Assembly (NCBI GenBank): GCA_004297335.1
Contig: SCUD01000091.1
Coordinates: 1-41,217 of the forward strand
Direction: 5' to 3'
Origin: Gammaproteobacteria bacterium
GTDB taxonomy: Bacteria > Pseudomonadota > Gammaproteobacteria > Steroidobacterales > Steroidobacteraceae
DNA length: 41,217 bases
In this document: positions 2,915 through 40,836 of the stretch, piece after piece
Layout of the letters: each line of letters begins with the position of its first letter
Numbering within the stretch: position 1 is the first letter of the stretch
Position numbers and translations under genes: made by a program
Notes under the pieces: generated by a model
What the model saw: the letters and a program-made list of their open reading frames with translations, nothing else
What the model was told of the DNA's origin: nothing
Database searches by the model: none

Positions 2915-3029
2915 CGGCGACGCGATCCTAGCACACTCCGCCCGTGCCACACGATTGGCCGGGCACCAAACTAGCGTATAGCCGATGCCTGAACTTGCGT
3001 TCAGCCGCCCGCTCAGCCTATCGTGCGCC

Positions 3030-4129
3030 ATGTCCGGGCCCGCCAGAACGATCCCGCGACTGCTCGCTCCCCGCCTCAATGCCGCCCTGCGCGACTGCCG
3101 GCTCGGTCCATCCTGGACGAAGTGCAGCGCATCCCGGAAATCTTCTCCTCGCTCAAGGCAGAGATCGACCGGCGCCGGACCCCGGGACGCTTCATTCTCA
3201 CGGGGTCGGCCAACGTCCTGCTCGTGCCGCGGCTTGCGGATTCGCTTGCCGGACGCATGGAGATTCTCCGGCTCCATCCGCTCGCGCAGTCGGAGCTCGC
3301 GGGTACCCAGTCCCGGTTCATCGATCGTCTGTTCAGTGGACAGTTCAAGACCTCCCTGTCCGAGCGTCTCGGCGGCGAGCTGGCCCGGCGCATCGTCGAT
3401 GGGGGCTACCCTGCCGCGCTGGCGCGGAGAGCGGCGGCGCGCCGGCGTGCCTGGTACCGCGACTACGTGGACACGCAGATCCAGCGTGACGTGCGCGACC
3501 TGAGTCGCCTGCGTTCACTCGATACCCTGCCGAAGCTGATCGGGCTCGTGGCGGCATATACCGCTCGTCTCATCAACGTTGCGGATCTCGCGGCACCGTT
3601 CGAACTGACGCGCCAGACCGTCCACGAGCACATCACGCTGCTCGAGCGCCTCTTCCTGCTGGATCGTCTGCCGTCGTGGCACAGCAATCACATGAGCCGC
3701 CTGGTCAAGCGGCCCAAGCTGCACATTGGCGATACGGGCGTCGCCTGCGCCCTGCTGGGCCTCGATGCCGCCCGGCTGGACGCCGACCGATCCAGGTTCG
3801 GCCCGATGCTCGAAACGTTCGTCCTGCAGGAATTGAAGCGTCACGCCAGCGGGCGGGCGGATCCCGTGGCGTTTCATCACTTTCGCGATCGCGACGACTT
3901 CGAAGTCGACATCGTCCTGGAGGAAGCTGGCACGCGGCTGGCCGGCATCGAAGTGAAGGCCGCGGCTTCGGTGAACGAGGCCGACCTGCGCGGACTGCGG
4001 AAGCTGCGCGCCGCCGCCGGGAAACGCTTCGTCGCCGGCATCGTGCTCTACGACGGCGAGGCGACGGTGGCTTTCGGTGACGGACTGTTCGCGGTTCCGG
4101 TCCGGGCGCTGTGGGAACAGCATGACTGA
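3030..4129 (+). pseudogene. AAA_14/DUF4143-family ATPase, Walker A region deleted
   Basis: The stretch from '[10 protein letters not shown]' to the stop matches AAA-ATPases with a C-terminal DUF4143 domain: Walker B 'ILDEVQR', sensor-like '[13 protein letters not shown]', '[10 protein letters not shown]', winged-helix segment 'LTRQTVHEHITLLERL', and C-terminal nuclease-like 'IEVKAAASV'. The N-terminal portion with the P-loop is missing. The true N-terminus appears in another frame from ATG 3030 ([20 protein letters not shown]) and breaks off near 3104, directly before Walker B. About 60-70 codons have therefore been lost, together with a frameshift. A protein restarted from a downstream codon could not bind ATP normally. 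The neighbouring hsdR remnant suggests a decayed restriction or defence patch. Confidence 0.85.
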
Positions 4130-7264: not shown

Positions 7265-9205
7265 CTACGGCACGACCGGCAGCTCGATGGCGGTCGGATG
7301 CCCCGGGGTATGCCAGATCCGCTGCGTGGCCTTCACATAGCTCGAAGGTGGTGCGAACAGGATGTTCGGCACGAAGGACTGCGGATTGCGGTCATACAAC
7401 GGGAACCAGCTCGACTGCAGCTGCACCATGACCCGGTGGCCCGGCAGGAAGGTGTGATTCACCTGGGGCAGCGGCAGCCGGTAGGCCAGCACCTTGCCCG
7501 GCTCCAGCGGCTGCGCCACGGCGAGATCCTGGCGATAGCGGCCGCGGAAGATGTCCGCTGACAGCATCTGCTGGTAGCCGCCGAGCGGTGGATTTTCCGG
7601 GACTTCGTCCGGCCAGACGTCGATCAGCTTGACCACCCAGTCCGTATCGCTGCCGCTCGTCGAGGCGAAGAGCCGGGCGATCGGCTGGCCCGCGACGCGC
7701 AGCGGTGCCGCGAGCGGCTCGGTCTCATACACGAGCACGTCGGTGCGCGAGGCGGCATGGCGCTGGTCATCCACCAGCCATTCGCCCCAGGTGGAGTCCG
7801 CGGCGTTGTAGGCGAGCGTCGGGCGCTGGCGATAGGGCACCGGTTTCGCGGGGTCGGAGACGTATTCACCATAGGACTGCGGTGAGACCGGCGGCGGGTC
7901 GAAGCCGAGCCGGCCGCCCGGCAGCAGGTACAGTTCGCGCGCCGGTGCGCTGCAGCCCTCGGCGCAGGAACGCGGCCAGTGGTCGTAGCGCTGCCAGGCA
8001 TTGGCGCCGGTCTCGTAGGCCAGCACGCGCGGCGTTTCGGGCCGCGGGGCGTCCTTCAGGTGATGGTCGAGGAACGGCTGCATCACGTTGCGGCGGAACC
8101 AGCCGGCGGTGTCGCCCTCGAACTGGAGAGCGCCGAGACTGCGGCCCTCGCGGCGCGCCTGTCCGTGATTCCAGGGCCCGAGCACCAGGTACACGAACCG
8201 ACCCTCCGGGTCCTTCGGCGCCAGTGCCCGGTACAGCGCGGGCCCGCCGTAGATGTCCTCCTGGTCGAACAACCCGGCGACGATCATCATCGGCACGCGG
8301 AGCGGTTCCCGCGCGAGCAGCCGGTCCACCGCCTGTTCCTGCCAGAAGGAGTCGTAGGCCTGGTGCTCGACCAGCGCCTTCCAGAAGCCGAGTTGCTCGA
8401 GCCCCCGTGAAGCCGCCATGGCACCGGCCGAACCCGCCCGCAGGAACTCGTCATAGGTGTCATAGCTGCCGGACCACCATTCCTCGGCATTCTTGCGCGT
8501 CGCTTCCTGGTCGTAGATGTACTGCAGCATGCCGTCCTGGCGGAAGGCGCCGTAGTGAAACCAGTCGTCGCCGATCCAGCCATCGACCATCGGCGCGAAG
8601 GGCACGGCGACCTTCAGCGCCGGGTGCGGGTGCACGGTTGACAGCGCGGTCGTGTAGCCTTCGTAGGAGCCGCCGATCGTGCCGACGCGGCCATTGCTCT
8701 CGGGCACGTTGTGGATCAGCCATTCGATCGTGTCGTAACTGTCGGTGGCGTGATCGGTCGCGGTCGGGTTGAGCGGGCCCTGCAGCGGCCGGGTCATGAA
8801 GTAGTCGCCCTCGGAGCCGTATTTCCCGCGCACGTCCTGGAAGACGATGATGTAGCCGGCCGCGACCGCGGTATCGTTCATCTGCGGCACGACCGCAGCG
8901 AGCCGCGGACTGTTGAAGCGCAGGACCCTCGCCGCGGCGTTGTAGGGGGTCCTGGTCAGCAGCATCGGTGCCTGACGGGCGCCCTTCGGCACCAGGATGA
9001 AGGTCTTTAGCTTCACCCCGTCCCGCATCGGGATCATTTCCTCGCGCCGGACGTAGTCGAAGGTCTCGGTCCTGGGCGTGAAGCGTTCCGGGATTTCACT
9101 CGACGGCGCGGCAGGTGCCTGAGCCGAGGATGTTTCGATGAAGACGGACAGCCCGGTGAGCACGAGCAAAGGTACGAGCCAGCCGGCCCTGCGGAGATGC
9201 GGCAT
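7265..9205 (-). CDS. CocE/NonD-family alpha/beta hydrolase, exported
   Basis: This 646-residue protein belongs to the X-Pro dipeptidyl-peptidase S15 / cocaine esterase group. Residues 1-29 are a signal peptide ending 'SSAQA', so it acts in the periplasm or outside. The nucleophile elbow is 'GTIGGSYEGY' with Ser180. 'VFQDVRGKYGSEG' precedes it as usual in S15 proteins, and 'LGPWNHGQ' carries the probable catalytic His. The C-terminal jelly-roll domain (PepX_C) starts near residue 430 and includes 'SGSDTDWVVKLIDVWPD' and 'HRVMVQLQSSWFPLYDRNP'. The substrate is an ester or amide of unknown identity. It sits inside the cox assembly region with no obvious link to respiration. Confidence 0.92.
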   Translation of the reverse strand: MPHLRRAGWLVPLLVLTGLSVFIETSSAQAPAAPSSEIPERFTPRTETFDYVRREEMIPMRDGVKLKTFILVPKGARQAPMLLTRTPYNAAARVLRFNSPRLAAVVPQMNDTAVAAGYIIVFQDVRGKYGSEGDYFMTRPLQGPLNPTATDHATDSYDTIEWLIHNVPESNGRVGTIGGSYEGYTTALSTVHPHPALKVAVPFAPMVDGWIGDDWFHYGAFRQDGMLQYIYDQEATRKNAEEWWSGSYDTYDEFLRAGSAGAMAASRGLEQLGFWKALVEHQAYDSFWQEQAVDRLLAREPLRVPMMIVAGLFDQEDIYGGPALYRALAPKDPEGRFVYLVLGPWNHGQARREGRSLGALQFEGDTAGWFRRNVMQPFLDHHLKDAPRPETPRVLAYETGANAWQRYDHWPRSCAEGCSAPARELYLLPGGRLGFDPPPVSPQSYGEYVSDPAKPVPYRQRPTLAYNAADSTWGEWLVDDQRHAASRTDVLVYETEPLAAPLRVAGQPIARLFASTSGSDTDWVVKLIDVWPDEVPENPPLGGYQQMLSADIFRGRYRQDLAVAQPLEPGKVLAYRLPLPQVNHTFLPGHRVMVQLQSSWFPLYDRNPQSFVPNILFAPPSSYVKATQRIWHTPGHPTAIELPVVP

Positions 9206-11531: not shown

Positions 11532-11762
11532 ATGAAGTCCAATATTACGCTGAAGCTCGACGCGGAACTGCTACGGGAGGTCCGGGTCGCGGCCGCGGAG
11601 GAGGGACGCTCCGTCAGTGCCCTGCTCACGGACCGGCTCGAAGCGATGATCCGGGAGCGCAAGACCTTCGAGCGTGCCCGGCGCCGTGCGCTCTCACGCG
11701 TGCGCGAAGGCCTCGATCTGCAGTGGGTACCCGGCCCGCGGGACGCGCTGCATGACCGGTAA
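11532..11762 (+). CDS. VapB-type ribbon-helix-helix antitoxin
   Basis: The 76-residue protein opens with 'MKSNITLKLDAELLREVRVA', a ribbon-helix-helix beta-strand plus helix of the CopG/Arc type. The second helix is 'GRSVSALLTDRLEAMIRER'. A charged C-terminal tail would wrap the toxin. It overlaps the PIN-domain gene by 11 bp, the standard antitoxin-first arrangement. It should bind its own promoter just upstream. Confidence 0.85.
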   Translation: MKSNITLKLDAELLREVRVAAAEEGRSVSALLTDRLEAMIRERKTFERARRRALSRVREGLDLQWVPGPRDALHDR

Positions 11763-12192
11763 GTACTTTGTGGACACCAATATCCTCATGTACGCGCATG
11801 ACCGGACCGCCGGCGAGAAACACGAACGTGCCCGGGACCTGGTCGAGGAACTGTGGCGCACTCGCCGCGGCGTCGTGAGCACGCAGGTGCTGCAGGACCT
11901 GGCCGTCAACCTGCGCCGGAAGGCTGGCCGTCCACTCGATGTACGGACCACCCGCGAGATCGTCGCCGACTACATGACGTGGCAGGTCATTGTGAATGGG
12001 GCTGATTCGATCCTCGAGGCCCTTGAACTGGAGCAGCGCTACCAGATCTCCTTCTGGGACGCGCTGATCGTCGGTGCGGCGGAAGCGGCCGGGGCCGAGG
12101 TGCTGTATTCCGAGGACCTGTCAAACCACCAGCGCTATGGCAGCGTCGAGGTCATCAATCCGCTGCTCGCCTCGGCGCACAAGCCGGCCTGA
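11752..12192 (+). CDS. VapC-type PIN-domain toxin
   Basis: The 146-residue predicted ribonuclease starts at ATG 11752 inside the antitoxin gene. PIN acidic residues are visible in 'YFVDTNILMYAHD', 'SFWDALIVGAA' and 'VLYSEDLSNHQ'; 'STQVLQDLAVNL' occupies the second motif but has no obvious Glu there, which is common in this subgroup ('COG5573-like'). VapC enzymes cut specific tRNA or rRNA sites. The module lies between SURF1 and DUF2909, genes usually next to each other in cox loci. Confidence 0.87.
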   Translation: MTGKYFVDTNILMYAHDRTAGEKHERARDLVEELWRTRRGVVSTQVLQDLAVNLRRKAGRPLDVRTTREIVADYMTWQVIVNGADSILEALELEQRYQISFWDALIVGAAEAAGAEVLYSEDLSNHQRYGSVEVINPLLASAHKPA

Positions 12193-12486: not shown

Positions 12487-13737
12487 CTATCGAGCCAGTT
12501 CCCGCGGCAGATGGGCTGAGGCCCGCCAGAAGCACAGGCTGGCGATACAGCCGAACATCCCGACCACCAGCATCGAATAGCGGATTCCGGCGGCGCCGTG
12601 CACGGGGCCGAAGACGTAGTCGTTCAGCGCGCCGACCGCCAGCGGACCGAGGCCGAGGCCGACCATGTTGGTGACGAACAGCAGGATCGCCACTGCGGTT
12701 GCCCGCATGCGCAATTCCGCGAGCCCCTGGACCATCGCAAACATCGGTCCGACATACATCGCGCCGAGCGTGTAGCACGGAATCAGGAACAGCAGCGAGG
12801 CCGACGCGTCGGGCGCCAGCGTGTATCCGGCCAGGAAGGGCACGGCAGCGGCGAGCTGGATCGCCGGCAGCCGCGCGTACCAGCGCACATCGCCTGCGCC
12901 CAGGAGATCGGCGAGGCGTCCGCCGGCAAAGGCGCCGATGCAGCCGCCGAGCAGCACGATCCAGCCCAGCGACATGCCGATCTCAGACCATGACAGTGCG
13001 TGCACGCGCGAGAAGAACGTCGGTCCCCAGGTCAGTACGCCATAGCCGGCCATGGACTGCAGCGCGGTGCCGGCGGCGATCAGCACGAAGGCGCGTCGCT
13101 TCGCGAGGTAGCGCAGCACCTCGCCGAGCGGCACGCTCACCGTCGCATCCGTGCGCTGCTCGGCGAAACCGCGCGGCAGTTCCCGCACGGTCAGCGCGAC
13201 CAGCGCGGCGAGTGCGAGCCCCGGCAGGCCGGCGAGGATCAGGGCGGTACGCCAGTCATAGTGGGTCACCAGCCAGCCGCCGGCGAGGAAGGCGAGCCCC
13301 GAGCCCAGGTAGACCCCCCAGGCGTACACGGACAGGGCGGTCGCGCGTTGCTGCGGCGGAAAGTAGTCGGCGATCAACGACTGGGACGGGGCATTGCCGC
13401 CGGCCTCGCCGACGCCGACCAGGACGCGCAGCAGCGCCAGCTGCGTGAAGCTGCGCGCGAGGCCGGAGGCCGCGGTCATCGCACTCCACAGGCTCAGGGC
13501 CGTGGCGATTATCAGCTTGCGGGAGATCCGATCCGCGAGCCGCGCGATCGGAATCCCGGCCAGCGTGTAGAAAATCACGAAGGCGAAGCCGGTCAGGAAG
13601 CCCATCGCCGTGTCGGAGACGCCGAACTCCGCTTTGATCGGCTCGACCAGCATCGCCAGGATCTGGCGGTCGATGAAGCTGACCATATAGACCAGCGTCA
13701 GCACCGCCAGCACGTAGCGGGCGTAACCCCGCGACAT
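12487..13737 (-). CDS. Major facilitator superfamily transporter
   Basis: The 416-residue inner-membrane protein has twelve predicted helices. It starts at the ATG giving MSRGYARYVLAVLTLVYMV. Motif A between helices 2 and 3 is 'GIPIARLADRISRKLIIA'; 'RVLVGVGEAGGNAPSQSLIA' is the helix 4 region of the Spinster-like / glycerol-3-phosphate-type branch. It ends the TonB-amidohydrolase-SnoaL-CoA-transferase operon, seven bases after the CoA-transferase stop. A role in carrying the same substrate or its breakdown acid over the inner membrane is inferred from position. Confidence 0.9.
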   Translation of the reverse strand: MSRGYARYVLAVLTLVYMVSFIDRQILAMLVEPIKAEFGVSDTAMGFLTGFAFVIFYTLAGIPIARLADRISRKLIIATALSLWSAMTAASGLARSFTQLALLRVLVGVGEAGGNAPSQSLIADYFPPQQRATALSVYAWGVYLGSGLAFLAGGWLVTHYDWRTALILAGLPGLALAALVALTVRELPRGFAEQRTDATVSVPLGEVLRYLAKRRAFVLIAAGTALQSMAGYGVLTWGPTFFSRVHALSWSEIGMSLGWIVLLGGCIGAFAGGRLADLLGAGDVRWYARLPAIQLAAAVPFLAGYTLAPDASASLLFLIPCYTLGAMYVGPMFAMVQGLAELRMRATAVAILLFVTNMVGLGLGPLAVGALNDYVFGPVHGAAGIRYSMLVVGMFGCIASLCFWRASAHLPRELAR

Positions 13738-13744
13738 CGGTGGC

Positions 13745-14971
13745 TTACCCGAGAGCGCCGGCCTGGCGCGCCGCCGCGCAGCGCGCGTCGTCCCAGCCAA
13801 GCACGTCGTGCAGCACCTGTTCCGTATGTTCGCCAACCTGCGGCGCACAGGCCGGGTCCGGCAGCTCCTCGCCGATGAAGCGGACCGGGAAACCGAGCTG
13901 GTCGGCGCCGTGGCGCTCGTGCGGCAGGATCCGGAAGCGCGCGCGGAACTGCGCGTCGTCGACCAGGTTCTGCGGCGTGTTGACCGGCGCGATCGGCACG
14001 TTGGCGCTGACGCCGAAATCGAGCCACTCGCGGCTGCTGCGCGTGCGGAAGATGTCGCGCAGGATCGCCTGCAGCTCGCGATTGCCGCGCGCGTGGTCCG
14101 CGTACTTCGAGCCCGGCCAGCGCTCGAACAGCTCGGGCCGCCCGACGCCATGGCAGAAGTTCTTCCAGAAGGCCTGCTCGGAGGCCATGAACAGCACGTG
14201 GCCGTCGGCAGACTCGTAGATCTGGTAGCGCACGCCCTCCTTCATGCCGGCGGTCGCGACCGGCCGCCGCTGCCAGCCGTCGGACTTGTTGCCGGTCACG
14301 ACGTCCTCCGGGCGCGCGTAAGCCATATGGCTCTCGTTGCGGTACCAGTCGAAGGCCGCCGCGGCATCGCTCTGCGCGAGATCGAGGAACGCGCCGCTGC
14401 CGGTCGCGCGCGCGCGGATCACGGCCGCGAGCACCGCGAGGCCGCCGTAGAGCGGTGCCGCGTTGATGCCGATGGACACGTGCTCGGGGATGTAGCAGAA
14501 CCCTTCCTCGTCATAGGCGGGGATCACGGCGCCGGCCCAGGTGTCGTAGGCGATGCCGTGCGAAGGCATGTCCTTGTAGGGACCGGTCATGCCATAGCCC
14601 GACATCGAGCAGAACACGATCCTGGGATTGATCGCCGCGAGATCCTCGTAGCCGAGGCCGAACTTCGCCAGTGCGCCCGGACGCGAGGCCTCGATCACGA
14701 CATCGGCGCGCCGCACCAGTTCGCGATAGATCTCCCGTGCCGCCCCGGTCTTCAGGTTGAGCACGATGCTGCGCTTGCCGCGGTTCAGGTGATAGTGCAT
14801 CAGCGAGACGCCCTGGATGATGGGCCAGGTCATCTCGCGGATGTAGTCGCCGCCAGGCGTCTCGACCTTGATCACGTCGGCGCCGAGATCGGCGAACGCG
14901 GTGGTGATCGCGGCCGGGCCGAGGATCGAACTCTCGACGACGCGCACTCCGGCGAGCGGTGGCGGATTCAT
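13745..14971 (-). CDS. CaiB/BaiF family III CoA-transferase
   Basis: The 408-residue cytoplasmic enzyme begins 'MNPPPLAGVRVVESSILGPA', a family III N-terminus, and continues with 'LGADVIKVETPGGDYIREM'. 'HYHLNRGKRSIVLNLKTG' and 'RADVVIEASRPGALAKFGLG' are typical. The catalytic Asp of this family lies about residue 165-170; the candidate here is in 'GIAYDTWAGAV'. It moves CoA between acyl-CoA and a carboxylic acid, or acts as an alpha-methylacyl-CoA epimerase. The start overlaps the SnoaL-like gene stop by ATGA. The substrate is unknown; it probably activates an acid formed from the imported compound. Confidence 0.92.
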   Translation of the reverse strand: MNPPPLAGVRVVESSILGPAAITTAFADLGADVIKVETPGGDYIREMTWPIIQGVSLMHYHLNRGKRSIVLNLKTGAAREIYRELVRRADVVIEASRPGALAKFGLGYEDLAAINPRIVFCSMSGYGMTGPYKDMPSHGIAYDTWAGAVIPAYDEEGFCYIPEHVSIGINAAPLYGGLAVLAAVIRARATGSGAFLDLAQSDAAAAFDWYRNESHMAYARPEDVVTGNKSDGWQRRPVATAGMKEGVRYQIYESADGHVLFMASEQAFWKNFCHGVGRPELFERWPGSKYADHARGNRELQAILRDIFRTRSSREWLDFGVSANVPIAPVNTPQNLVDDAQFRARFRILPHERHGADQLGFPVRFIGEELPDPACAPQVGEHTEQVLHDVLGWDDARCAAARQAGALG

Positions 14972-15429
14972 GCAGTGGACTCCGGTTTGGCCCAGCCGGG
15001 CTCGATCGGTACGAGGTAGCGCATGACCAGGCGGCGCGAGCGGAACTTCCAGCAACCGTCCTCGCGCGCGTACTCGTCTTCGTAGTACCCGGAGCCGATC
15101 AGGCTCCTGCCGTCCATGGTTGCGCGCAGGTCGAGATAGCAGGTGCCGGTTGCGCGCGTGCCATCGAGGTGGATCACGTGATTGTGGACGAAGGGCTCGA
15201 ACACGGCCGGCCCGAGCAGGTTCTGGTAGCTGGCGAGAATCGCCTCACGGCCGCGGATTGGTGGCTGGGTGCCGGTGTCCATGCAGCCGTCCGCCGTGAA
15301 CAGCGCCGCCGCACCCGGGACATCGCGGGTCCACACGCAGTGCGCGTAGCGCCGCGCGAGGTCGCGGATCGCCTCGAGATCGGAGAGCCGGCGGACCTCG
15401 GCCTCGAGGCTGCCGCCCTCCCGGCTCAC
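14968..15429 (-). CDS. SnoaL/NTF2-like protein (first copy)
   Basis: The 153-residue protein folds as a SnoaL/ketosteroid-isomerase-like cone. 'LSDLEAIRDLARRYAHCVWT' is the usual first helix and 'AALFTADGCMDTG' the first strand, followed by 'FEPFVHNHVIHLDGTRATGT'. The best start is GTG 15429, which overlaps the amidohydrolase stop as GTGA; the frame is open further upstream but runs inside that gene. Family members are isomerases, dehydratases or non-enzymatic binding proteins. In catabolic operons they often act on cyclic intermediates. It is translationally coupled at both ends. Confidence 0.85.
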   Translation of the reverse strand: MSREGGSLEAEVRRLSDLEAIRDLARRYAHCVWTRDVPGAAALFTADGCMDTGTQPPIRGREAILASYQNLLGPAVFEPFVHNHVIHLDGTRATGTCYLDLRATMDGRSLIGSGYYEDEYAREDGCWKFRSRRLVMRYLVPIEPGWAKPESTA

Positions 15430-16406
15430 TGCGACCGGACCCGCTTCACCGGCTCGATGCCGGTGAGCCGCGCGAGATTGAGGCCGAGGATCTTCGCCTT
15501 GTCCTCGTCGGTCACCGGCGCGTAGCCCCAGTTCTGCTGCAGCTCCTCCGGCATCTCGAGATGTCGGATCCAGTCGACGACGCGGCTGAGGTCGTCGAAC
15601 GGCAGGTCGAAGCCGAGCACGATCTTGTCGGCCGGCATCCACTGCAGCGCGGTGCCGATCGCGTGATAGCCGCGATAGGGCGCCCGCTGGTACCAGCCGA
15701 GGATGCCGGACAGGCTCATGTACAGGTTCCGGTGCTTGCCGCACAGGCCGATCAGCAGCTCGGTGTCAGGCCAGCCGGCGTGGTAGGCGATGATCTTGAG
15801 ATCCGGAAAGTCGAGCAGCACGTCGTCGAGCTGGCCGACATGGCAGTGGCTGTTCGGCTGCGGGCAGACGTAACTGATCCCGGTGTGGATCGTCAGCGGC
15901 ACGCCGAGTTCGCTCGCCTTCTCGTAGAACGGCCACAGGCGCCGGTCGTTGATCGGACCCTCGTCCTCCGGCGTGTACAGCTTGCACAGCCGCGCGCCCT
16001 TCTCCTTCACCAGGAACTCAAGTTCCCAGTTCGCATGCTTCACGCCGCGTCGAATCACCGGCCCGACGTTGGCCTCGAGGTACATGCGCTCGGGGTACGG
16101 GGCGATCTGCTGCAGCATGAAGCCGTTGGTGGACAGCGAAACGACACCGCCGGTGACGTCCATCATCGGCTCGCGCAGGCAGAAGGCGACGTCGACACGG
16201 GCCTTGTCCATCTCGCCAATCAGCGCGCTGGCGATGGGCTTCGGCCATTCGCTGTTGGTCAGGTCGCGCCCCGCCCAGGCGCGCATGACACCATCGACGC
16301 TGCCCCACCAGCGGTGCACATCCGGGTAGTAGTCGATTTCACTCATGGTCTGCAAATTCATGAAGTGAAATTCGGTCATCGCGACGAAGAAGTCCCGGTT
16401 GCTCAT
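15426..16406 (-). CDS. Amidohydrolase (ACMSD-like TIM barrel) without the N-terminal HxH
   Basis: The 326-residue protein belongs to the amidohydrolase_2 group of metal-dependent hydrolases and decarboxylases. Barrel positions are clear: 'GVPLTIHTGISYVCPQ' (strand-5 His), 'LKIIAYHAGWPDTELL' (strand-6 His) and 'KIVLGFDLPFDDLSR' (strand-8 Asp). The expected HxH near the N-terminus is not visible; the corresponding stretch is 'VAMTEFHFMN'. ATG 16406 is preferred; TTG 16418 overlaps the receptor stop and is possible. A decarboxylase or hydrolase role on a ring-derived intermediate is inferred. The altered metal site may mean a different reaction. Confidence 0.85.
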   Translation of the reverse strand: MSNRDFFVAMTEFHFMNLQTMSEIDYYPDVHRWWGSVDGVMRAWAGRDLTNSEWPKPIASALIGEMDKARVDVAFCLREPMMDVTGGVVSLSTNGFMLQQIAPYPERMYLEANVGPVIRRGVKHANWELEFLVKEKGARLCKLYTPEDEGPINDRRLWPFYEKASELGVPLTIHTGISYVCPQPNSHCHVGQLDDVLLDFPDLKIIAYHAGWPDTELLIGLCGKHRNLYMSLSGILGWYQRAPYRGYHAIGTALQWMPADKIVLGFDLPFDDLSRVVDWIRHLEMPEELQQNWGYAPVTDEDKAKILGLNLARLTGIEPVKRVRSQ

Positions 16407-16414
16407 CGCTGGGC

Positions 16415-18844
16415 TCAATACTCGAAGCGGACGTCGAGGCCGTAGGTCCGCGGCTCGCCCCAGCTCGCCGAGCCTGCCGTGGTCCAGCCCTGGTAGGACA
16501 GCGTCGAGTAGCTCTCATCCGTGAGGTTCTTGCCCCACAGCGCGATGCTGAACCGGCCGTGGTCGCTGTTGCCGAACGGGATCTCGGACAACGTCAGGCG
16601 CGCGTTCAACAGACTGAATGCCGGCGTCACCGACATGATCTCGACGTCCGGAACCGTCAGGTTCAGCGGCGTGCCGGTCCGGGAACGGTGCGAGTAGTCG
16701 ATGTTGGCCGCGAGCGCCCCCGGCAGTCCGAAGTCCGGGAAACGATAGTTGGCGCTGATCGTGTAGTCGCCCTTCGGCGTGACGAGCCGGCGTAGCGCCG
16801 TTACATCGGCGCCGGAGGTCGGATCGATCCACAGGTCGTACTGGTGATCGAGCGTCGCGTAGCTCGCCGTGATCAGCAGGTTCTCGGTCGCAGCGAAAGC
16901 TGCATCGAACTCCAGCCCCTCGTAGGTCGAGCTGCCGACGTTCTCGGTCTTCCAGCCGCCCGAGGGCAGTGCGACCGACTTCTGTTCGTCCGTGAACTCG
17001 CTCCTGAAGATTGCGACGTTCAGGCGCAGCCGCCGGTCCATGAACTCGCCCTTCAGGCCGAGTTCATAGGACTCCATTTCCTCGGGAGCGAAACCCGCCG
17101 AGAAGGCTGCCGCCGTGCCGGGACCGGAAACCGGGTCGAAGCCGCCGCTGGTGTAGCCCTTCGAGTACTTCGCGTAGCTCATCAGGTCATCGGACCAGTG
17201 GTAGTTGAACGACAGGGCCGGCGTGACCTGCGAGAAGCTGCGGCTGCCGGTTGCGCTCACATAACCGACGTCCGGCGCCGCGATCGGCACCGGCGGAGCG
17301 ACCAGCATCACCGTGCCCGGAGCGGTCGGTACGACCACATAGCCGGTGGTCCAGCCGCGGTTGTAGCCGATCGCGAAACGCTCGTCCTCCGTATAGCGGA
17401 CGCCCGGCACGATTTCGAGCTTCTGGCCGAACATCTCCGGCCGCCAGCTCAACTGGCCGAATACCGCCCAGGACTTGTTCTTGGCCCAGCGCAGCCCCTT
17501 CTCATCGACCATCAGGAAGTCCACGCCCGCGAAGCCGGAGCCGGAGGGCATGTACATGCCGACGTTCGGACCGGAAGTCTGCCAGCCGTCCTCCTTGGCC
17601 CAGTACACGCCGGCGGTGTAGTTGACGGTATCGCTGAGGTCGCCGAGGAACTGGAACTCCTGCGACACGGCGCGGTTGTACAGCGCGACCGGGTGCGACT
17701 CGCCGGTGAACGGATTGCGGGCCCCGCCGAGATTTCCGTAGGGATCGATCATCATCAGCCCGCCGCTGTCGGAGCGCACGTCCGCGGCCCCGGCGTAGGC
17801 GCCATAGTTGTATTCGTTGCTGGTATCGACGATTCGATAACCGGTGATCGAGCGGATCGTCAGCGTCTCGGTCGCCTGCCACTCGACGTTCAGTGTGTGT
17901 CCGTGGATCAGGTTCTCGTTCTTCGACAGCTTGAACGGGTAGTACAGCTCCTTCAGTTTGGTCGGCGAGCAGCCGTTGACGAAGGCAGTGATCCGCGGGT
18001 CGCCGGTGAAAGCGAGGGCCGTGATCGAGGGCGATGGATACCGGCACTGCGGCTGCGTATCGTAGCCGCTCGCATCCGAGCGGTCGAAGCCGTAATCCAC
18101 CCTCAGGTTATCGCTTGGCTGCCAGCGCAGGTCTACGCGAAAAGCATTGACGTCGCGCTTGCCGAACTCGACACCGCCCGGCGCGGTATTCTCGATCTCG
18201 CCATGATCGCGGGTCAGCCACAGGTAGGACAGCTTGGCCGCGAAGGTGTCGCCGACCGGGATGTTGACGATCGTGCGCGAGCGATACTGGCCGTAGTTGG
18301 CGCCGGAGAGTTCCTGCTTGAGGCCGAACTCGCCCAGGCGCGGCCGCGCCGTGAAGATGTTGATCGCGCCGCCGGAGGCATTGCGACCGGACATCACGCC
18401 CTGCGGGCCCTTCAGGATCTCGATGCGTTCGAGGTCGGCGGCCGGGTTGTTGAGGCCAACGAGCTGCGACCAGAACACCCCGTCCACGTGCACGGCGATC
18501 GGGTTCGGCGCGCTGACGAACGCGGTGTTCGTCGTCAGGCCGCGGAAGGTCGGGAAGAAGAAGTCGCTGCTGCCCGGATACGGTGGCAGGCTCAGGCCCG
18601 GGATGGAACCATCGTTGATGTCGCCGAGGCTGACGATGCCGCGGTTCTCCAGTGCCACCGCGTCCACCGCGAGCACCGAGATCGGCACGTCCTGCAGGTT
18701 CTCGGAGCGCTTCTGCGCCGTTACGATGACTTCCGTCAACACGGCTTCCGTGCTGCGCTCCGTCTCGGCCGCGATAACGGCTGGAACGGCGAGCGTAGCG
18801 AGGATGGCGCTGATCGCGAGCCGTAGTCTGTTCTGCGCGTGCAT
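16415..18844 (-). CDS. TonB-dependent outer-membrane receptor
   Basis: The 809-residue receptor starts at MHAQNRLRLAISAILATL, with AGGAG upstream; residues 1-26 are a signal peptide. A TonB-box-like 'LTEVIVTAQKR' follows. The plug domain shows 'DVPISVLAVDAVALENRGIV', 'VHVDGVFWSQ' and 'IEILKGPQGVMSGRNASGGA'. The beta-barrel occupies the rest and ends with an aromatic 'LDVRFEY'. It belongs to the large group that imports hydrophobic carbon sources as well as siderophores. As the first gene of a catabolic operon it probably imports the operon's substrate. A divergent flavoprotein gene shares its upstream region. Confidence 0.95.
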   Translation of the reverse strand: MHAQNRLRLAISAILATLAVPAVIAAETERSTEAVLTEVIVTAQKRSENLQDVPISVLAVDAVALENRGIVSLGDINDGSIPGLSLPPYPGSSDFFFPTFRGLTTNTAFVSAPNPIAVHVDGVFWSQLVGLNNPAADLERIEILKGPQGVMSGRNASGGAINIFTARPRLGEFGLKQELSGANYGQYRSRTIVNIPVGDTFAAKLSYLWLTRDHGEIENTAPGGVEFGKRDVNAFRVDLRWQPSDNLRVDYGFDRSDASGYDTQPQCRYPSPSITALAFTGDPRITAFVNGCSPTKLKELYYPFKLSKNENLIHGHTLNVEWQATETLTIRSITGYRIVDTSNEYNYGAYAGAADVRSDSGGLMMIDPYGNLGGARNPFTGESHPVALYNRAVSQEFQFLGDLSDTVNYTAGVYWAKEDGWQTSGPNVGMYMPSGSGFAGVDFLMVDEKGLRWAKNKSWAVFGQLSWRPEMFGQKLEIVPGVRYTEDERFAIGYNRGWTTGYVVVPTAPGTVMLVAPPVPIAAPDVGYVSATGSRSFSQVTPALSFNYHWSDDLMSYAKYSKGYTSGGFDPVSGPGTAAAFSAGFAPEEMESYELGLKGEFMDRRLRLNVAIFRSEFTDEQKSVALPSGGWKTENVGSSTYEGLEFDAAFAATENLLITASYATLDHQYDLWIDPTSGADVTALRRLVTPKGDYTISANYRFPDFGLPGALAANIDYSHRSRTGTPLNLTVPDVEIMSVTPAFSLLNARLTLSEIPFGNSDHGRFSIALWGKNLTDESYSTLSYQGWTTAGSASWGEPRTYGLDVRFEY

Positions 18845-18893
18845 GTCGATGACTCCTGCTGTTGGCATCACCCGGCGTTTCAATCGTGCCTGG

Positions 18894-18913
18894 ATGTTGC
18901 GTACGGGCAACAT
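18894..18913. promoter_or_regulatory. Palindromic operator candidate upstream of TonB receptor
   Basis: ATGTTGC-GTACGG-GCAACAT is a perfect 7-bp-arm inverted repeat in the 196-bp region between the receptor and the KstD-like gene. It lies about 50 bp before the receptor start and could be the binding site of a regulator controlling both directions. No regulator gene is adjacent; the nearest is the TetR gene at 25390. Confidence 0.45.
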
Positions 18914-19040
18914 TATTTCCGGCACAACATCGCTTTCGTAGCACAAGCTAGCAGATGAATCCACTCCCGACCTACTCCATTGGGACGATATCGCAAGGGA
19001 GCGGGCCACGGGCGTATTCTTCGGCCTCAAGCCGGCCCGG

Positions 19041-20750
19041 ATGGTTTCGCGAGTGACGCTGTTGCCTGTACCTGACATCGAAACGGACATCCTGGTCGTC
19101 GGCTCTGGCGCCAGCGGCCTGGCCGCAGCGCTGACGGTCGCGCTGCACGGCGGCCGGCCGCTCGTCATCGAGCGCAGCCACCTCTTTGGCGGCACCTCGG
19201 CGACTTCGGGCGGGACTATCTGGATCCCGAACAACCATCTGATCGGGCCGGCGGGCGGTTCGGACAGCGAGGCCGAGGCGCTCGAGTATCTGCAAACGCT
19301 GGTCGGCAACGACGCCACCGACGCGCGCATCCGCGCCTTCGTGACCGAGGCGCCGCGGATGTTCCGGTTCCTCGATGAGCGCGCCGGCCTGCGCTGCGAA
19401 TCGCTCCCGCGCTACTGCGACTACCACCCGGAGCTGCCCGGCGGCAAGCCCGGCTGGCGCAGCTGCCAGGCGCTGCCGGTGAAGGCGGACCTGCTCGGGG
19501 GCGACTTCGCGGCGTTGCAGCCGCCGCACCTGTGCACGACGGCTTTCGGCCGCATCAACTGGACCGCGCGCGAGGCGCTGCCACTGATCACGCAGGGCAA
19601 GGGCGCAAAGTCCACGTTCCTGCGCATTGCCCTGAAGTACTGGCTCGACGTCGGCCAGCGTTGGAAGACGCCGCGCGACCGTCGCCTGACCGGCGGCGGC
19701 GCGCTGATTGCGCGCCTGATGGTGGCGCTCAGGCAGCAGGGCGTGCCGGTGCACCTGTCCACCTCGCTCATGGAATTCATCGTCGAGGATGGCCGGGTGA
19801 CTGGTGCGATCGTCGCTGCCGACGGCCTGCCCCAGCGCATCCGCACGGCGCGCGGCGTGATCGTCGCCTCGGGTGGATTCGAGCGCAACGCGGAAATGCG
19901 CGGTCGCTGGCTGCCGCAGCCGACGACGACGGCCTGGTCGGCGGGCGTGCCCTCCAACACCGGCGAGCCAATCGCGGCCGCGATGCGCATCGGCGTCGCG
20001 ATGCACAACCTGGACTCGGCCTGGTGGGCGCCGGGCTTCAAGCTCGCCGACGAGGACCGCGCGCGGCCGATGTTCGTCGAGCGCGCGCTGCCGGGCTCGA
20101 TCATGGTCGACCAGGGCGGACAGCGCTTCTGCAACGAGGCAGCGTCCTATCACGTGACCGGCGGCATCATGGCCCGCCGCGCCGCGTCGGGCACCGCGCC
20201 GACCTGGTTCCTGTTCGATGCGCGCTATCGCGGCAAGTACGCGATCGGACCGCTCTTCCCCGGGCCACCTCGACTCGATGCACGGCTGCGGCCGAGCATG
20301 CGCGCGCTGCTGCGGCGCGCCGATTCGATCGCCGACCTGGCGCGCGCGACCGGCCTGCCCGCGGCGGCTCTTGAAGCCACTGTGGCCCGTTTCAACAGCA
20401 TGGCGCAGCAGGGCCGCGATGAGGATTTTCATCGCGGGGAGAGTCTCTACGACCGCTATTACGGTGACGCCGCGGTCGCGCCCAATCCCTCGCTTGCGCC
20501 GCTGACGCGGCCGCCGTTCTATGCGCTGCCGATCTGGCCCTGCGAGATCGGCACCAACGGCGGCATACTCGCCGACGAGTTCGGTCGCGCGCTCCGCGCC
20601 GATGGCACGCCGCTCGCGGGCCTCTATGCCGCCGGCAACTGCGCTGCCTCGCCGATGGGCCGCAGCTATCCCGCCGCGGGGGCCACGCTCGGCTCCGGCA
20701 TGACCTTCGGCTACATCGCCGCGCGCCACGCGCTCGGCATCACCGCTTGA
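19041..20750 (+). CDS. KstD-like FAD-dependent dehydrogenase
   Basis: The 569-residue flavoprotein resembles 3-ketosteroid dehydrogenases. The dinucleotide-binding motif 'DILVVGSGASGLAAAL' is at residues 16-31, with 'FGGTSATSGGTIWIP' next, the usual 'SGGxxWxP' block. The C-terminal catalytic part is 'PPFYALPIWPCEIGTNGG', aligning the KstD Tyr (Tyr494) and the GTxGG loop. 'GLYAAGNCAASPMGRSYPAA' and 'GSGMTFGYIAARHA' close the FAD site. It introduces a double bond next to a ketone, or acts on a related cyclic substrate. The SnoaL-like gene starts 17 bases after its stop. Steroid specificity is not proven. Confidence 0.9.
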   Translation: MVSRVTLLPVPDIETDILVVGSGASGLAAALTVALHGGRPLVIERSHLFGGTSATSGGTIWIPNNHLIGPAGGSDSEAEALEYLQTLVGNDATDARIRAFVTEAPRMFRFLDERAGLRCESLPRYCDYHPELPGGKPGWRSCQALPVKADLLGGDFAALQPPHLCTTAFGRINWTAREALPLITQGKGAKSTFLRIALKYWLDVGQRWKTPRDRRLTGGGALIARLMVALRQQGVPVHLSTSLMEFIVEDGRVTGAIVAADGLPQRIRTARGVIVASGGFERNAEMRGRWLPQPTTTAWSAGVPSNTGEPIAAAMRIGVAMHNLDSAWWAPGFKLADEDRARPMFVERALPGSIMVDQGGQRFCNEAASYHVTGGIMARRAASGTAPTWFLFDARYRGKYAIGPLFPGPPRLDARLRPSMRALLRRADSIADLARATGLPAAALEATVARFNSMAQQGRDEDFHRGESLYDRYYGDAAVAPNPSLAPLTRPPFYALPIWPCEIGTNGGILADEFGRALRADGTPLAGLYAAGNCAASPMGRSYPAAGATLGSGMTFGYIAARHALGITA

Positions 20751-20767
20751 GCACCCGGGGAGATCGC

Positions 20768-21403
20768 ATGGCGGAGCAGGACCGCGTCGCGGCGATCGAA
20801 CGACGCCTTGACCGCATCGAGTCGACCGAGCAGATCCGCCAGCTCGCCGCGCGCTACTCGCTCGCGCTCGACATGCGCGACCTCGATGCCCTGGCCGGGT
20901 TGTTTCCGGAGGACGTGCAGGTCGGGCGTGGGCAGGGCGGTCGTGCGGCCCTGCGCGCGTGGTTCGACCAGACCCTGCGCCAGCAGTTCACCGGCACGGC
21001 GCACCATATCGGCAACCACATCATCGAGTTCGAGGACGCGGACCACGCCCGCGGCGTCGTCTATTCGAAGAACGAGCACGAGACGCCGACCGAGTGGGTG
21101 ATCATGCAGATGATGTACGTGGACGACTACGAGCGCGTTGCCGGGCGCTGGTATTTCCGCCGGCGCCTGCCGCTCTACTGGTACGCGACTGATCTCAACA
21201 AGCCCCCGCTCGGGCCGAAGAAGATGCGCTGGCCCGGCGTCGAGCCCTACGAGGGCGGCTATCACGAATTGTTCCCGAGCTGGCAGGAGTTCTGGGAGCG
21301 CTCGGGTCCGCCAGACACGCCGGTCCCCGAGCCGGTGCCGTTCGACGAGTTCATCGCGCGCATGCGCCGCGGCGCGCGCGGGCCGTCGATCAAGGTGCGC
21401 TGA
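20768..21403 (+). CDS. SnoaL-like protein (second copy), KstD partner
   Basis: The 211-residue protein starts at ATG 20768 with GGGGAGA five bases upstream; TTG 20747 overlapping the KstD-like stop is possible. The N-terminal SnoaL fold reads 'ESTEQIRQLAARYSLALDMR' and 'DLDALAGLFPEDVQVG', with 'AHHIGNHIIEFEDADHARG'. The C-terminal 70 residues are a Trp/Pro-rich extension not seen in the first SnoaL copy. It probably follows the dehydrogenase in the same transcript. The last 32 coding bases plus four more reappear at 23361-23396. Confidence 0.85.
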   Translation: MAEQDRVAAIERRLDRIESTEQIRQLAARYSLALDMRDLDALAGLFPEDVQVGRGQGGRAALRAWFDQTLRQQFTGTAHHIGNHIIEFEDADHARGVVYSKNEHETPTEWVIMQMMYVDDYERVAGRWYFRRRLPLYWYATDLNKPPLGPKKMRWPGVEPYEGGYHELFPSWQEFWERSGPPDTPVPEPVPFDEFIARMRRGARGPSIKVR

Positions 21404-21407
21404 GGGG
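21372..21407. repeat. 36-bp direct repeat, left copy (3' end of SnoaL gene)
   Basis: This exact 36-base segment contains the last codons and stop of the SnoaL-like gene plus GGGG. It recurs without mismatch at 23361-23396. The pair brackets the FitBA module, the acyl-CoA ligase tail and the DUF2189 gene. Confidence 0.9.
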
Positions 21408-21417
21408 CGGCGCCTCG

Positions 21418-21849
21418 TCACCGCACCTTGGCCCGATCCCACGGATCGATTACCGCAATCCCACACCCGGCGAAGTCGCTCGTGTTTCGGGTGGCCACGG
21501 CGGCCTGGTTGGCGCGGGCGATGGCAGCAATCTGGCAGTCGAATTGACTGATTGGCCGACCGGCGGCACGGCGTTCCGCGGCGATGGAGGCGTAAGCGCG
21601 GGCAGCCGCCCGGTCAAAGGGCAGGATGCGGTCGCTGAAATCCTCCTCGAGAAGACCTTCGATCGCTTTGGCAAGTGCGGTGCGTCGTTTCCCCGCAGGC
21701 AGCATCGCCACGCCATGTCGCAGTTCAGCTTCGCCGACCGCGGTGAAATAGACCGTCGCGCCGTGCTGCGCGGCGAGCCACGCTTCAACCTGCACAGCTG
21801 GCGACGGGCGCAGCAGTTCGGAAATGACGTTGGTGTCGAGGACGATCAT
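21418..21849 (-). CDS. FitB/VapC-type PIN-domain toxin
   Basis: The 143-residue predicted endoribonuclease has all PIN motifs: 'MIVLDTNVISELLRP', 'AVGEAELRHGVAMLP', 'SQFDCQIAAIARA' and 'ATRNTSDFAGCG'. The 'LDTNVISELxRP' opening is typical of the FitB branch. It is downstream of its antitoxin with a one-base overlap (TAATG). It converges on the SnoaL-like gene, 14 bases from that gene's stop. Confidence 0.92.
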   Translation of the reverse strand: MIVLDTNVISELLRPSPAVQVEAWLAAQHGATVYFTAVGEAELRHGVAMLPAGKRRTALAKAIEGLLEEDFSDRILPFDRAAARAYASIAAERRAAGRPISQFDCQIAAIARANQAAVATRNTSDFAGCGIAVIDPWDRAKVR

Positions 21850-22100
21850 TACCGTCCCCGGCCAAGATGAGGCGGCTCGCGCATCGCCTCACGCGCGGGC
21901 AGATCAAGCTCGACACGGTTGGCAGGCGCAACTCTGGCGCGGATCGCGGCGGCGAGGTTGCGCGGCGGAGCGCCTTGATCCACGACCCGCCGCAGAATAT
22001 CCCGCGCTTCCTCCTCCATCGAGCGGCCGTGCACGGCGGCGCGTACTCTCAGGCGCTGCTTGATGTCGTCTTCCAGGTTGCGAATCGTGATGCTGGCCAT
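21849..22100 (-). CDS. FitA-type ribbon-helix-helix antitoxin
   Basis: The 83-residue protein starts at MASITIRNLEDDIKQRLRVR. This matches FitA: an N-terminal ribbon-helix-helix DNA-binding half ('AVHGRSMEEEARDILRRVV') and a C-terminal tail that blocks the PIN active site ('PANRVELDLPAREAMREPPH'). It should autoregulate from the palindromes just upstream. Confidence 0.9.
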   Translation of the reverse strand: MASITIRNLEDDIKQRLRVRAAVHGRSMEEEARDILRRVVDQGAPPRNLAAAIRARVAPANRVELDLPAREAMREPPHLGRGR

Positions 22101-22131
22101 GGCGGTCTTCTCATCGCCGGGAAACTGTCTG

Positions 22132-22160
22132 CATCGTAATCGATGATTGCGTTGCAATCA
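22132..22160. promoter_or_regulatory. Candidate FitAB operator
   Basis: TGATTGC-GTT-GCAATCA (22144-22160) is a perfect 7-bp-arm palindrome 44 bases before the antitoxin start. It partly overlaps another inverted repeat, CATCG-TAAT-CGATG (22132-22145). Ribbon-helix-helix antitoxins bind such repeats; the assignment is positional. Confidence 0.55.
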
Positions 22161-22195
22161 ACGCCTCCGGCCCGGTCGCCGCCATTCCGGATCAG

Positions 22196-22396
22196 GCGAT
22201 CGATCCCGCAACCCTGTTCGACTTCCTGCGTGGCCGGATGGCCCACTTCATGTTGCCTCGATACATACGCATCGTTGCGGAGTTGCCGCGGACTCCGACG
22301 GAGAAGGTCCGGAAGTTCGAACTCAGGCGGGAAAGAGTAACCGCCGATACCTGGGACCGCGAGGCAGCTGGAATTCGCGTCAAGCGGGACCTCTGA
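22196..22396 (+). pseudogene. C-terminal remnant of acyl-CoA synthetase (AMP-binding)
   Basis: The frame reads 'AIDPATLFDFLRGRMAHFML', 'PRYIRIVAELPRTPTEKVRK' and 'VTADTWDREAAGIRVKRDL' before TGA 22396. This is the mobile C-terminal domain of the CaiC-like / long-chain acyl-CoA ligase family, including the catalytic-lysine segment 'TPTEKVRK'. The rest of the enzyme (about 450 residues) is missing; the FitAB promoter lies directly upstream. It is on the same strand as the KstD-SnoaL genes, so a ligase probably once continued that operon. Confidence 0.85.
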
Positions 22397-38856: not shown

Positions 38857-38914
38857 GGATATCTCCCGGGGCGCCCATTGTGCCCGGGGCCGGCCGCGCC
38901 GGCGACCTCCAAAC

Positions 38915-38951
38915 GGATCAGTCGTCCTCGCCGCAGACGTCGGCAATCGCG
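38915..38951. repeat. 37-bp direct repeat, distal copy (3' end of nitronate monooxygenase)
   Basis: This segment repeats 39716-39752 with one mismatch (AATCGCG against GATCGCG). It contains a copy of the last codons and stop of the monooxygenase gene. It ends two bases before the PemK-like toxin stop codon (38954-38956). Confidence 0.9.
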
Positions 38952-38953
38952 GT

Positions 38954-39382: not shown

Positions 39383-39385
39383 CGC

Positions 39386-39643: not shown

Positions 39644-39715
39644 TAACGGGATCCTACGAATCTCCGAAACATTATAACGCTGATTTTCCATGTTTACCAG
39701 ATAATACGTGAAAAA

Positions 39716-39752
39716 GGATCAGTCGTCCTCGCCGCAGACGTCGGCGATCGCG
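39716..39752. repeat. 37-bp direct repeat, proximal copy (in gene)
   Basis: This is the coding end and stop of the monooxygenase gene (codons for AIADVCGEDD) plus three bases. Its copy lies at 38915-38951. The 764 bp between hold only the toxin, the antitoxin and the antitoxin promoter. Confidence 0.9.
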
Positions 39753-40822: not shown

Positions 40823-40836
40823 GACTTGTCTCCTTC

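Follow-up and report, generated by a model that had tools for sequence, protein, structure and literature searches.

The window analysed here is a 41,217-nt stretch of a Steroidobacteraceae genome (contig SCUD01000091.1), within which seven genes lie in two divergent groups (Table 1). Pfam identifies on the minus strand an MFS protein, a CoA-transferase III protein (CoAT), a SnoaL_4 protein (SnoaL-1), an Amidohydro_2 protein (AH) and a TonB receptor with plug and barrel domains, and on the plus strand a FAD_binding_2 protein (KstD) and a second SnoaL_4 protein (SnoaL-2). These domains and a re-check of the borders uphold the gene calls and junctions of the initial annotation; the end that it gave to the locus, at 22396, is too far out, since the block is followed by a PIN-domain gene. 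The receptor and AH are separated by 8 nt, AH and SnoaL-1 overlap by 4 nt (GTGA), as do SnoaL-1 and CoAT (ATGA), and CoAT is 7 nt from the MFS gene. The gap between KstD and SnoaL-2 is 17 nt. To judge by the start codons and by where the domains end, the two longer frames (554 and 971 aa) probably begin too early. On its geometry, the divergent intergenic region would be expected to carry the promoters of both transcripts; no sigma-70 consensus, promoter or terminator pattern was found in 18700-19100.

Table 1. Genes and features of the divergent block, in window coordinates.
Feature	Position	Strand	Evidence and remarks
MFS transporter, last gene of block	12487..13737	-	PF07690 5.1e-46; start chosen at 13737
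CoA-transferase (CoAT), class III fold	13745..14971	-	PF02515 4e-80
SnoaL-1 (SnoaL_4, NTF2-like)	14968..15429	-	GTG start; PF13577 5.1e-26
Amidohydrolase-superfamily protein AH, type I	15426..16406	-	PF04909 1.5e-31
TonB-dependent receptor	16415..18844	-	PF00593 4.2e-35, PF07715 4.1e-14
Divergent intergenic region between both transcripts, 196 nt	18845..19040	.	geometry
KstD	19041 or 19053..20750	+	PF00890 5.8e-76
SnoaL-2 (SnoaL_4)	20768..21403	+	PF13577 9.5e-22
PIN-domain gene beyond block	21418-21849		Pfam

The five-gene minus-strand block, which the initial annotation had proposed to seek in other genomes, was recovered only in part, in the Steroidobacteraceae MAG L026. Here, a KstD (73%) is divergent from, in order, a 224-aa gene, AH (79%), SnoaL-1 (71%) and CoAT (81%). 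Because L026 keeps this KstD/AH/SnoaL-1/CoAT order, we regard the block as more than a chance association; its conserved part is AH plus CoAT. A scan of viral contigs gave no matches. The borders of neighbouring genes are rough, the gene caller having been trained on the seven window genes, and L035, L162 and L179 were called poorly.

The FAD protein belongs to the 3-ketosteroid dehydrogenase family. Its top NCBIfam models are 3-ketosteroid-delta-1-dehydrogenases, with scores below their cut-offs, it matches structure 7p18 with 422 bits over residues 15-564 of 569, and the catalytic Tyr/Tyr/Tyr/Gly, which we take to be Tyr119/Tyr318/Tyr487/Gly491 of the Rhodococcus enzyme, all align at a constant offset in the alignment with 8jbz. 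The genome holds three KstD-like genes, and the window copy has a 73% counterpart only in G199, with 38-48% in other genomes. The genome has 64 barrel matches, among them this TonB receptor, which is likely to serve in outer-membrane substrate uptake. Homologues of the MFS protein (68-69%) occur near SnoaL-2 in L023, L025 and L029.

Orthologues of AH at 73-85% are found in Thauera terpenica, T. butanivorans, Azoarcus/Aromatoleum, Sterolibacterium, Halieaceae and Steroidobacteraceae, among others, and these carriers are known or suspected steroid degraders. More distant homologues (39-43%) occur in Nitrospinota and other bacteria (L047, L049-L057) outside the genomes tallied for atcA, and the plasmid collection contained no match at 1e-30. 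Six residues (E12, H14, K142, H174, H209 and D267) are invariant across 26/26 aligned rows, and five of these correspond to the metal ligands at strands 1, 5, 6 and 8 (E12-x-H14, H174, H209 and D267). The first ligand is Glu, not His, as is also seen in some decarboxylases. The structure model (pLDDT 82.4) is a distorted TIM barrel according to its Foldseek and VIA-align matches, and comparison of its fold places AH with the ACMSD type, a group that includes decarboxylases and LigY.

CoAT covers the full CaiB/BaiF domain (PF02515, profile 1-366 of 366) and is the only match in its own genome at E<=1e-90. None of the alignments, which differ on the column, puts an acidic residue at the class III catalytic Asp position. 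In alignments with structures, the residue that we presume to be the catalytic Asp of class III CoA-transferases lies opposite I169 (9br6, 9br7), opposite P173 (4ed9, 4hl6) or within an insert (10uh), and both I169 and P173 are invariant (16/16 rows). The Asp column of the family alignment is occupied by Ile in 6/6 CoAT rows shown, by Asp in f17, f18, f24 and f21, and by His in f30; the invariant acid nearest to the site is E163. In other genomes, the neighbours of CoAT include acyl-CoA dehydrogenase, dehydratase-type or ETF genes.

The SnoaL proteins differ in their distribution. Homologues of SnoaL-1 were found in L026 (71%) and L030 (57%). SnoaL-2 is present in 20/21 atcA genomes, own included, and was considered as a 2,3-seco pathway marker, a role that we dropped because 15 of the 21 genomes with homologues at >=44%, in a survey of 200 genomes of the family, lack atcA above cut-off and because 26 plasmid records, 19 of them from Sphingobium or Novosphingobium, also carry matches. 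Its profile matches include 3ef8 (putative scytalone dehydratase, 1.6e-9) and BaiE (5.1e-6), and LinA was also aligned. D35 and H79/H80 are invariant (19/19 rows) and presumably correspond to the catalytic Asp/His of BaiE and LinA; the SnoaL-2 model is too poor for use (pLDDT 41.6). In 12/18 other genomes and on the two plasmids inspected, SnoaL-2 precedes a flavin reductase (Oxidored_FMN-family) gene. A passage on Comamonas testosteroni describes SteC/SteD as a 12-beta-OH dehydratase and an alkene reductase (PMC13101464). By family and neighbours, SnoaL-2 is a candidate SteC-like or BaiE-like dehydratase.

An indication of function comes from co-occurrence with atcA, the gene that marks the anaerobic 2,3-seco steroid pathway. 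An AtcA homologue (E<=1e-50) is present in 21/21 AH-bearing genomes tested, and each of the 20/20 other AH-bearing genomes has one CoAT match at 74-81%. Across the 200 family genomes, the same six carry AtcA, AH and CoAT, while the remaining 194 are without any of them above the cut-offs; all three are likewise absent at these cut-offs from six further genomes of the genus to which the window belongs. In seven other genomes, AtcA, AH and CoAT share one contig within about 27-40 kb. A study of 26 Thauera genomes reports atcABC in GDN1 and two more strains, which are the two named Thauera carrying AH (PMC9980454). The window's own genome encodes AtcA homologues 73% and 71% identical to the T. 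terpenica protein, the first of which adjoins a second KstD; beside the copy on C129 lie genes labelled AtcB/AtcC from place and sequence. A 37-39% paralogue, AH type II, is found together with atcA type II in six genomes, with neither in any other. In 5/6 it lies directly behind atcA type II, the spacing ranging between an overlap of 4 nt and a gap of 12 nt; the exception is G202, where the two do not adjoin. We take this adjacency as consecutive pathway enzymes encoded by consecutive genes. A KstD comes after AH type II in G091 and G201, and G048 has atcA and CoAT with AH of type II only. The third AtcA-like gene of the own genome (C146, about 58-64%) is without a type II AH partner. The AtcA tree leaves out G203, where no gene was called.

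Based upon these observations, we propose, with a probability of about 0.78, that the block, organised as two divergent transcripts, serves the opening of ring A in the anaerobic 2,3-seco steroid pathway. The pathway, an oxygen-independent route with which certain bacteria break open the first ring of sterols and steroid hormones, is already known, and the block most likely fits into it. The TonB receptor and MFS protein would transport the steroid or one of its breakdown products, and KstD, assigned by family membership, would put in the C1-C2 double bond. AtcABC, a xanthine-oxidase-type 1-testosterone hydratase/dehydrogenase encoded elsewhere in the genome and with activity as given in the literature, would then hydrate and oxidise C1 to give the 1,3-dione, which AH may cleave between C2 and C3 via its E-x-H/H/H/D metal site to give the 2,3-seco acid. 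AH is therefore, from its pairing with atcA and its fold, a candidate hydrolase of the ring-A 1,3-diketone made by AtcABC. The title of a 2025 study concerns a ring-A beta-diketone hydrolase, the expected reaction and kind of organism matching AH, and that hydrolase may be an amidohydrolase-superfamily enzyme. From its neighbours in other genomes, CoAT, lacking the usual Asp, might contribute to activation with CoA or to the beta-oxidation-like steps that come next. The SnoaL proteins could be dehydratase- or isomerase-type helpers, SnoaL-2 being likelier to act as a dehydratase of ring hydroxyl groups. The own genome gave no match to KshA of the 9,10-seco pathway (PF19298), a search in which 0/14 control genomes passed the cut-off either.

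The initial annotation knew this gene set from no described pathway, a statement that is not supported, given the contigs elsewhere on which AH and CoAT homologues accompany atcA and the matching title of the 2025 paper on the hydrolase. Its suggestion of a steroid substrate is backed by the atcA homologues of the AH-bearing genomes, and the terpenoid or lignin-type products that it also named, though conceivable, are not needed to explain the block. Section 13 of a 2019 review counts the enzymes for ring-A hydrolysis, CoA activation and ring-B hydrolysis as unidentified (PMC6678751), and the Figure 11 legend of the same review shows CoA transferases in the clusters of Sterolibacterium, of which one adjoins atcABC, with no function given there. 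A search of a limited literature collection, covering titles, abstract openings and passages, returned no assignment of CoAT or AH to this pathway.

The ring-B hydrolase being likewise unassigned in that section (PMC6678751), AH and CoAT might instead act later in the same pathway, with AH hydrolysing, for example, a ring-B C-C bond en route to HIP while another hydrolase opens ring A. The acyl-CoA dehydrogenase, dehydratase-type or ETF neighbours of CoAT would suit such a role, but the position of AH type II right behind atcA, and the restriction of both to the same six genomes, better fit the step after AtcABC, and we consider the later role improbable. Less probable still is that the block serves side reactions of bile acids or hydroxylated steroids (bai-like or Ste-like dehydroxylation) and not ring-A cleavage. 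Two SnoaL_4 proteins with a CoA-transferase III and an MFS protein resemble, as we take it, baiE, baiF and baiG, and a bai-type operon was our first idea. The bai operon also encodes BaiB, an AMP-ligase, BaiA, an SDR, and BaiCD/BaiH, which are Oxidored_FMN proteins; Pfam finds AMP-ligase, SDR and Oxidored_FMN domains absent from the seven genes, and the bai-type operon was dropped for want of a BaiB-, BaiCD- or BaiA-type domain. The placement of SnoaL-2 before flavin reductase genes in other genomes and on plasmids, like SteC/SteD (PMC13101464), speaks for dehydroxylation, but AH and CoAT go with atcA. A terpenoid or other cyclic-ketone pathway reusing steroid-type enzymes is very unlikely given the co-occurrence with atcA and the three KstD-like genes, even though other alicyclic pathways also produce cyclic 1,3-diones, T. 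terpenica is also a terpene isolate and the amidohydrolase family has a wide substrate scope.

If AH is the ring-A hydrolase, AH and AtcA would form a two-gene marker of anaerobic steroid degradation in genomes from sewage, sediment and gut. The linkage of AH, CoAT and AtcA would also place the catalytically atypical, uncharacterised CoAT at the centre of the pathway's next step. Tentatively, CoAT could be the founder of a distinct Asp-less class III branch, obligate in anaerobic steroid ring degradation, which would put CoA on the 2,3-seco acid in partnership with a paralogue that has the Asp, or else catalyse another reaction of the opened ring, for example ring-A/B C-C cleavage; we hold this to be possible and no better than that, in part because the alignments differ on the column of the missing Asp.

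Compared with known systems, AH shares the fold of ACMSD-type amidohydrolases (2,3-dihydroxybenzoate decarboxylases, LigW, LigJ and LigY), with a best Z of 24.5 and rmsd of 2.8 over 270 residues, and with LigY a Z of 20.5 and rmsd of 3.6 over 255 residues. It differs from them in sequence (9-21% identity among the 50 matches listed) and probably in substrate, which would be a cyclic 1,3-diketone. CoAT matches class III (CaiB/BaiF) CoA-transferases over their full length, whereas its aligned orthologues have no acid at the catalytic Asp. SnoaL-2 resembles the SteC/SteD system, by family and neighbours only, in being of SnoaL/NTF2 kind and in standing elsewhere before an Oxidored_FMN-family gene, but its partner in the window is KstD. 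Finally, the genome shares AtcA homologues, KstD-like genes, AH and CoAT with the 2,3-seco pathway organisms (Steroidobacter, Sterolibacterium and Thauera, with atcABC). In contrast to those genomes, its atcA copies sit on other contigs than the block, and AH and CoAT are held in a tight operon with the TonB receptor, SnoaL-1 and MFS genes, opposite KstD.

The seven genes that the initial annotation assembled into a catabolic locus at 12487-22396 (TonB receptor, amidohydrolase, SnoaL, CoA-transferase and MFS, with a divergent KstD-SnoaL pair) are all present, and the tight coupling claimed for the minus strand is borne out. The order is receptor, amidohydrolase (AH), SnoaL-1, class III CoA-transferase-fold protein (CoAT) and MFS transporter. 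Receptor and AH are 8 nt apart, AH overlaps SnoaL-1 by 4 nt, as SnoaL-1 does CoAT, and 7 nt separate CoAT from MFS. The genes for 3-ketosteroid delta-1-dehydrogenase (KstD) and SnoaL-2 lie on the opposite strand, 196 nt from these. The window makes up the entire contig C128 of its genome (G000), a 3.96 Mb assembly of 187 contigs with 64 TonB-receptor barrel matches that is assigned to the same family as genome G091. PIN-domain genes stand on both sides of the block, and a second steroid-type block closes the contig (see table). The window also encodes a peptidase S15-type hydrolase; another S15 gene is found in locus L014, two genes behind an atcA-AH-KstD run.

Coordinates of features in the window and in related loci
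Feature	Position	Strand	Remark
Peptidase S15-type hydrolase	7265-9028	-	
PIN-domain (VapC-like)	11752-12192	+	
CoAT	13745-14971	-	
SnoaL-1	14968-15429	-	
AH	15426-16406	-	
SnoaL-2	20768-21403	+	
PIN-domain (VapC-like)	21418-21849	-	
803-aa open frame	31374-33785	+	no Pfam match; rejected as a gene by codon-based caller
Second steroid-type block	37229-41217	-	end of contig
Thiolase family	37229-38410	-	second block; labelled Ltp2-like here
ChsH2-type OB protein	38407-38856	-	second block
NMO-family flavoprotein	39719-40822	-	homologues elsewhere adjoin CoAT or atcA
Another CoA-transferase, C-terminus only	runs off contig end	-	second block
CoA-transferase-fold pair	L012:4029-5237, 2848-4032		adjoining; also in L018 and L029
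F420-dependent NADP-oxidoreductase family	L012:11732-12409, L026:3251-3925		upstream of AH in Steroidobacteraceae MAGs

AH is the natural candidate for the ring-A hydrolase step of the anaerobic 2,3-seco steroid pathway. Its model (pLDDT 82.4) is an ACMSD-type barrel, for which Foldseek placed LigJ, LigW and relatives on top. In VIA-align the top rank went to 2,3-dihydroxybenzoate decarboxylases (Z 24.5, rmsd 2.8 over 270 residues), with LigW, LigJ and LigY below. LigY is a C-C hydrolase of the amidohydrolase superfamily. By alignment and model, the invariant E12-x-H14, K142, H174, H209 and D267 fall on or beside strands 1, 4, 5, 6 and 8; a metal-held water would attack C3 of the 1,3-dione, and AH would thereby cleave the C2-C3 bond. 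In a 2019 review, the ring-A hydrolase and the CoA-activating enzyme were listed as unidentified (PMC6678751). Since a 2025 review (PMC12507874) cites a ring-A beta-diketone hydrolase (Jacoby et al., 2025), AH is probably an enzyme of an already described kind, and the block probably combines genes of a known pathway in a new order.

An alignment of four AH proteins, used to scan the species-genome collection, yielded 41 AH loci. Identities of 73-85% were found in, among others, Sterolibacterium MAGs, Thauera terpenica 58Eu, T. butanivorans, Azoarcus sp. Aa7, Aromatoleum toluclasticum, A. toluolicum, A. evansii, Halieaceae and Steroidobacteraceae, and weaker loci (37-43%) in Steroidobacteraceae, Pseudomonadales, Nitrospinota and further bacteria. 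Relatives at 39-43% make up loci L047 and L049-L057, Nitrospinota included, with two AH-like genes near each other in L049 and L055. According to the part of PMC9980454 that surveys 26 Thauera genomes, atcABC occurs only in GDN1, T. butanivorans NBRC 103042 and T. terpenica 58Eu, and Azoarcus and Aromatoleum are carriers too. A gene for a member of the F420-dependent NADP-oxidoreductase family (assigned by Pfam for L012) precedes AH in Steroidobacteraceae MAGs and is near CoAT in some other genomes; the window lacks it.

We then consider co-occurrence with the pathway marker AtcA in 21 genomes: G000, G091, G048 and those of 18 of the 41 AH loci, all Nitrospinota being left out. Every one holds an AtcA homologue at E<=1e-50, the best matches sharing 57-100% identity with that of T. 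terpenica. At E<=1e-90 each also has a single CoAT match, with 74-81% identity in the 20 besides G000. Peptides translated here from atcA primer sites (primers from PMC5554518) were found in the T. terpenica protein and in the AtcA-like proteins of loci L013 and L014. In an unselected survey of 200 genomes of the window's family (AtcA and CoAT E<=1e-150, with only the top few candidates of a first pass scored in each genome; AH E<=1e-40), each protein occurred in six, and these were the same six genomes: G000, G091, G048 and G253, G256 and G264. By their coordinates the last three are G200, G199 and G201 of the 21-genome set, which also contains the first three, and the survey is to this extent not separate from the first test. 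Two sets of six would coincide by chance with a probability of about 1.2e-11 were the genomes independent, but the true figure is weaker because they are related and three of the six belong to one genus. None of the three proteins was found in the other six genomes that belong to the same genus as the window.

Linkage was worked out for nine genomes. AtcA, AH and CoAT share a contig within about 27-40 kb, AH in the middle, in seven whose contigs have matching lengths in the collections used: T. terpenica, T. butanivorans, Azoarcus Aa7, G209, G210, Pseudohalioglobus and Seongchinamella. In G091 AH adjoins CoAT with type I atcA about 26 kb off, and in the window genome the atcA copies are on contigs C146 and C129, apart from AH and CoAT. 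Three AtcA-like genes at >=58% lie there, on G000:C146:1-16000 (L015) and G000:C129 (L190): a 73% copy beside a second KstD, a 71% copy that has AtcB/AtcC-like neighbours, and a third, divergent one, which is on C146 and was matched in two pieces of one open frame; there are further matches at 32%.

By identity and tree, AtcA splits into type I, which is a clade, and a second type (57-60%). Of the six second-type sequences, five group together (support 100/100), and G202_b branches outside them (84/60). The second-type genomes (G048, G091, G199, G200, G201 and G202) are those with a type II AH, 37-39% identical to the window AH, a distribution that outside the family is based on a pattern scan of the species-genome collection. 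Type II AH lies directly 3' of atcA in five of the six, the spacing ranging between an overlap of 4 nt and a gap of 12 nt, and is followed by KstD in G091 and G201; in G202 the two genes are apart. G048 has the second-type pair only, and the type I AtcA of G199 is a 148-residue fragment. The window genome's third AtcA-like frame sits at the base of the type I clade, with no type II AH partner.

The literature we found on the pathway assigns no role to CoAT, which occurs in every pathway genome tested. It matches its family over its full length. At the site that we take to hold the catalytic Asp in known class III transferase structures, five alignments place I169 (9br6, 9br7), P173 (4ed9 and YfdE, 4hl6) or an insert (10uh); I169 and P173 are invariant in 16/16 aligned orthologues, with no acid between them. 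When CoAT is aligned side by side with other families from these loci, this column is Ile in all 6 CoAT rows; f17, f18, f21 and f24 have Asp there, and f30 has His. The L012 pair consists of an f24 and an f30 member. The closest invariant acid, E163, could act as a substitute. In other genomes CoAT has two kinds of neighbours: acyl-CoA dehydrogenases with a dehydratase-domain gene and a CoA-transferase that has the Asp, or an ETF gene together with a flavoprotein of the NMO family. Such surroundings fit a part in activating the opened ring with CoA and in its beta-oxidation, but ordinary CoA transfer by CoAT on its own should not be assumed.

The window KstD resembles KstD structure 7p18 over nearly its full length and, in alignment, is identical at four positions that we take to be the catalytic residues of Rhodococcus KstD1. 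A close orthologue is present only in G199 (73%), the other 19 atcA genomes giving matches of 38-48%; four family genomes without atcA gave none at E<=1e-110. SnoaL-2 has matches (63-70%) in 19/20 other atcA genomes; the exception is G213, a MAG in 583 or more contigs. In the family survey its range is wider than that of atcA. Among 18 other genomes where the gene caller found SnoaL-2, a flavin-reductase gene (Oxidored_FMN, from a single member put through Pfam) follows it in 12, and the complete order SDR-SDR-SnoaL-2-reductase occurs in eight; the arrangement was not seen in the three Thauera-like loci, the two Sterolibacterium loci or G048. An annotated alkene reductase follows SnoaL-2 on one Novosphingobium and one Sphingobium plasmid. 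In the account in PMC13101464, the SnoaL/NTF2 protein SteC of C. testosteroni removes the 12-beta-hydroxyl group, SteD carries out the reduction of the alkene, and SteA and SteB are SDRs. A SteC-like role is our best guess for SnoaL-2, judged by family and neighbours.
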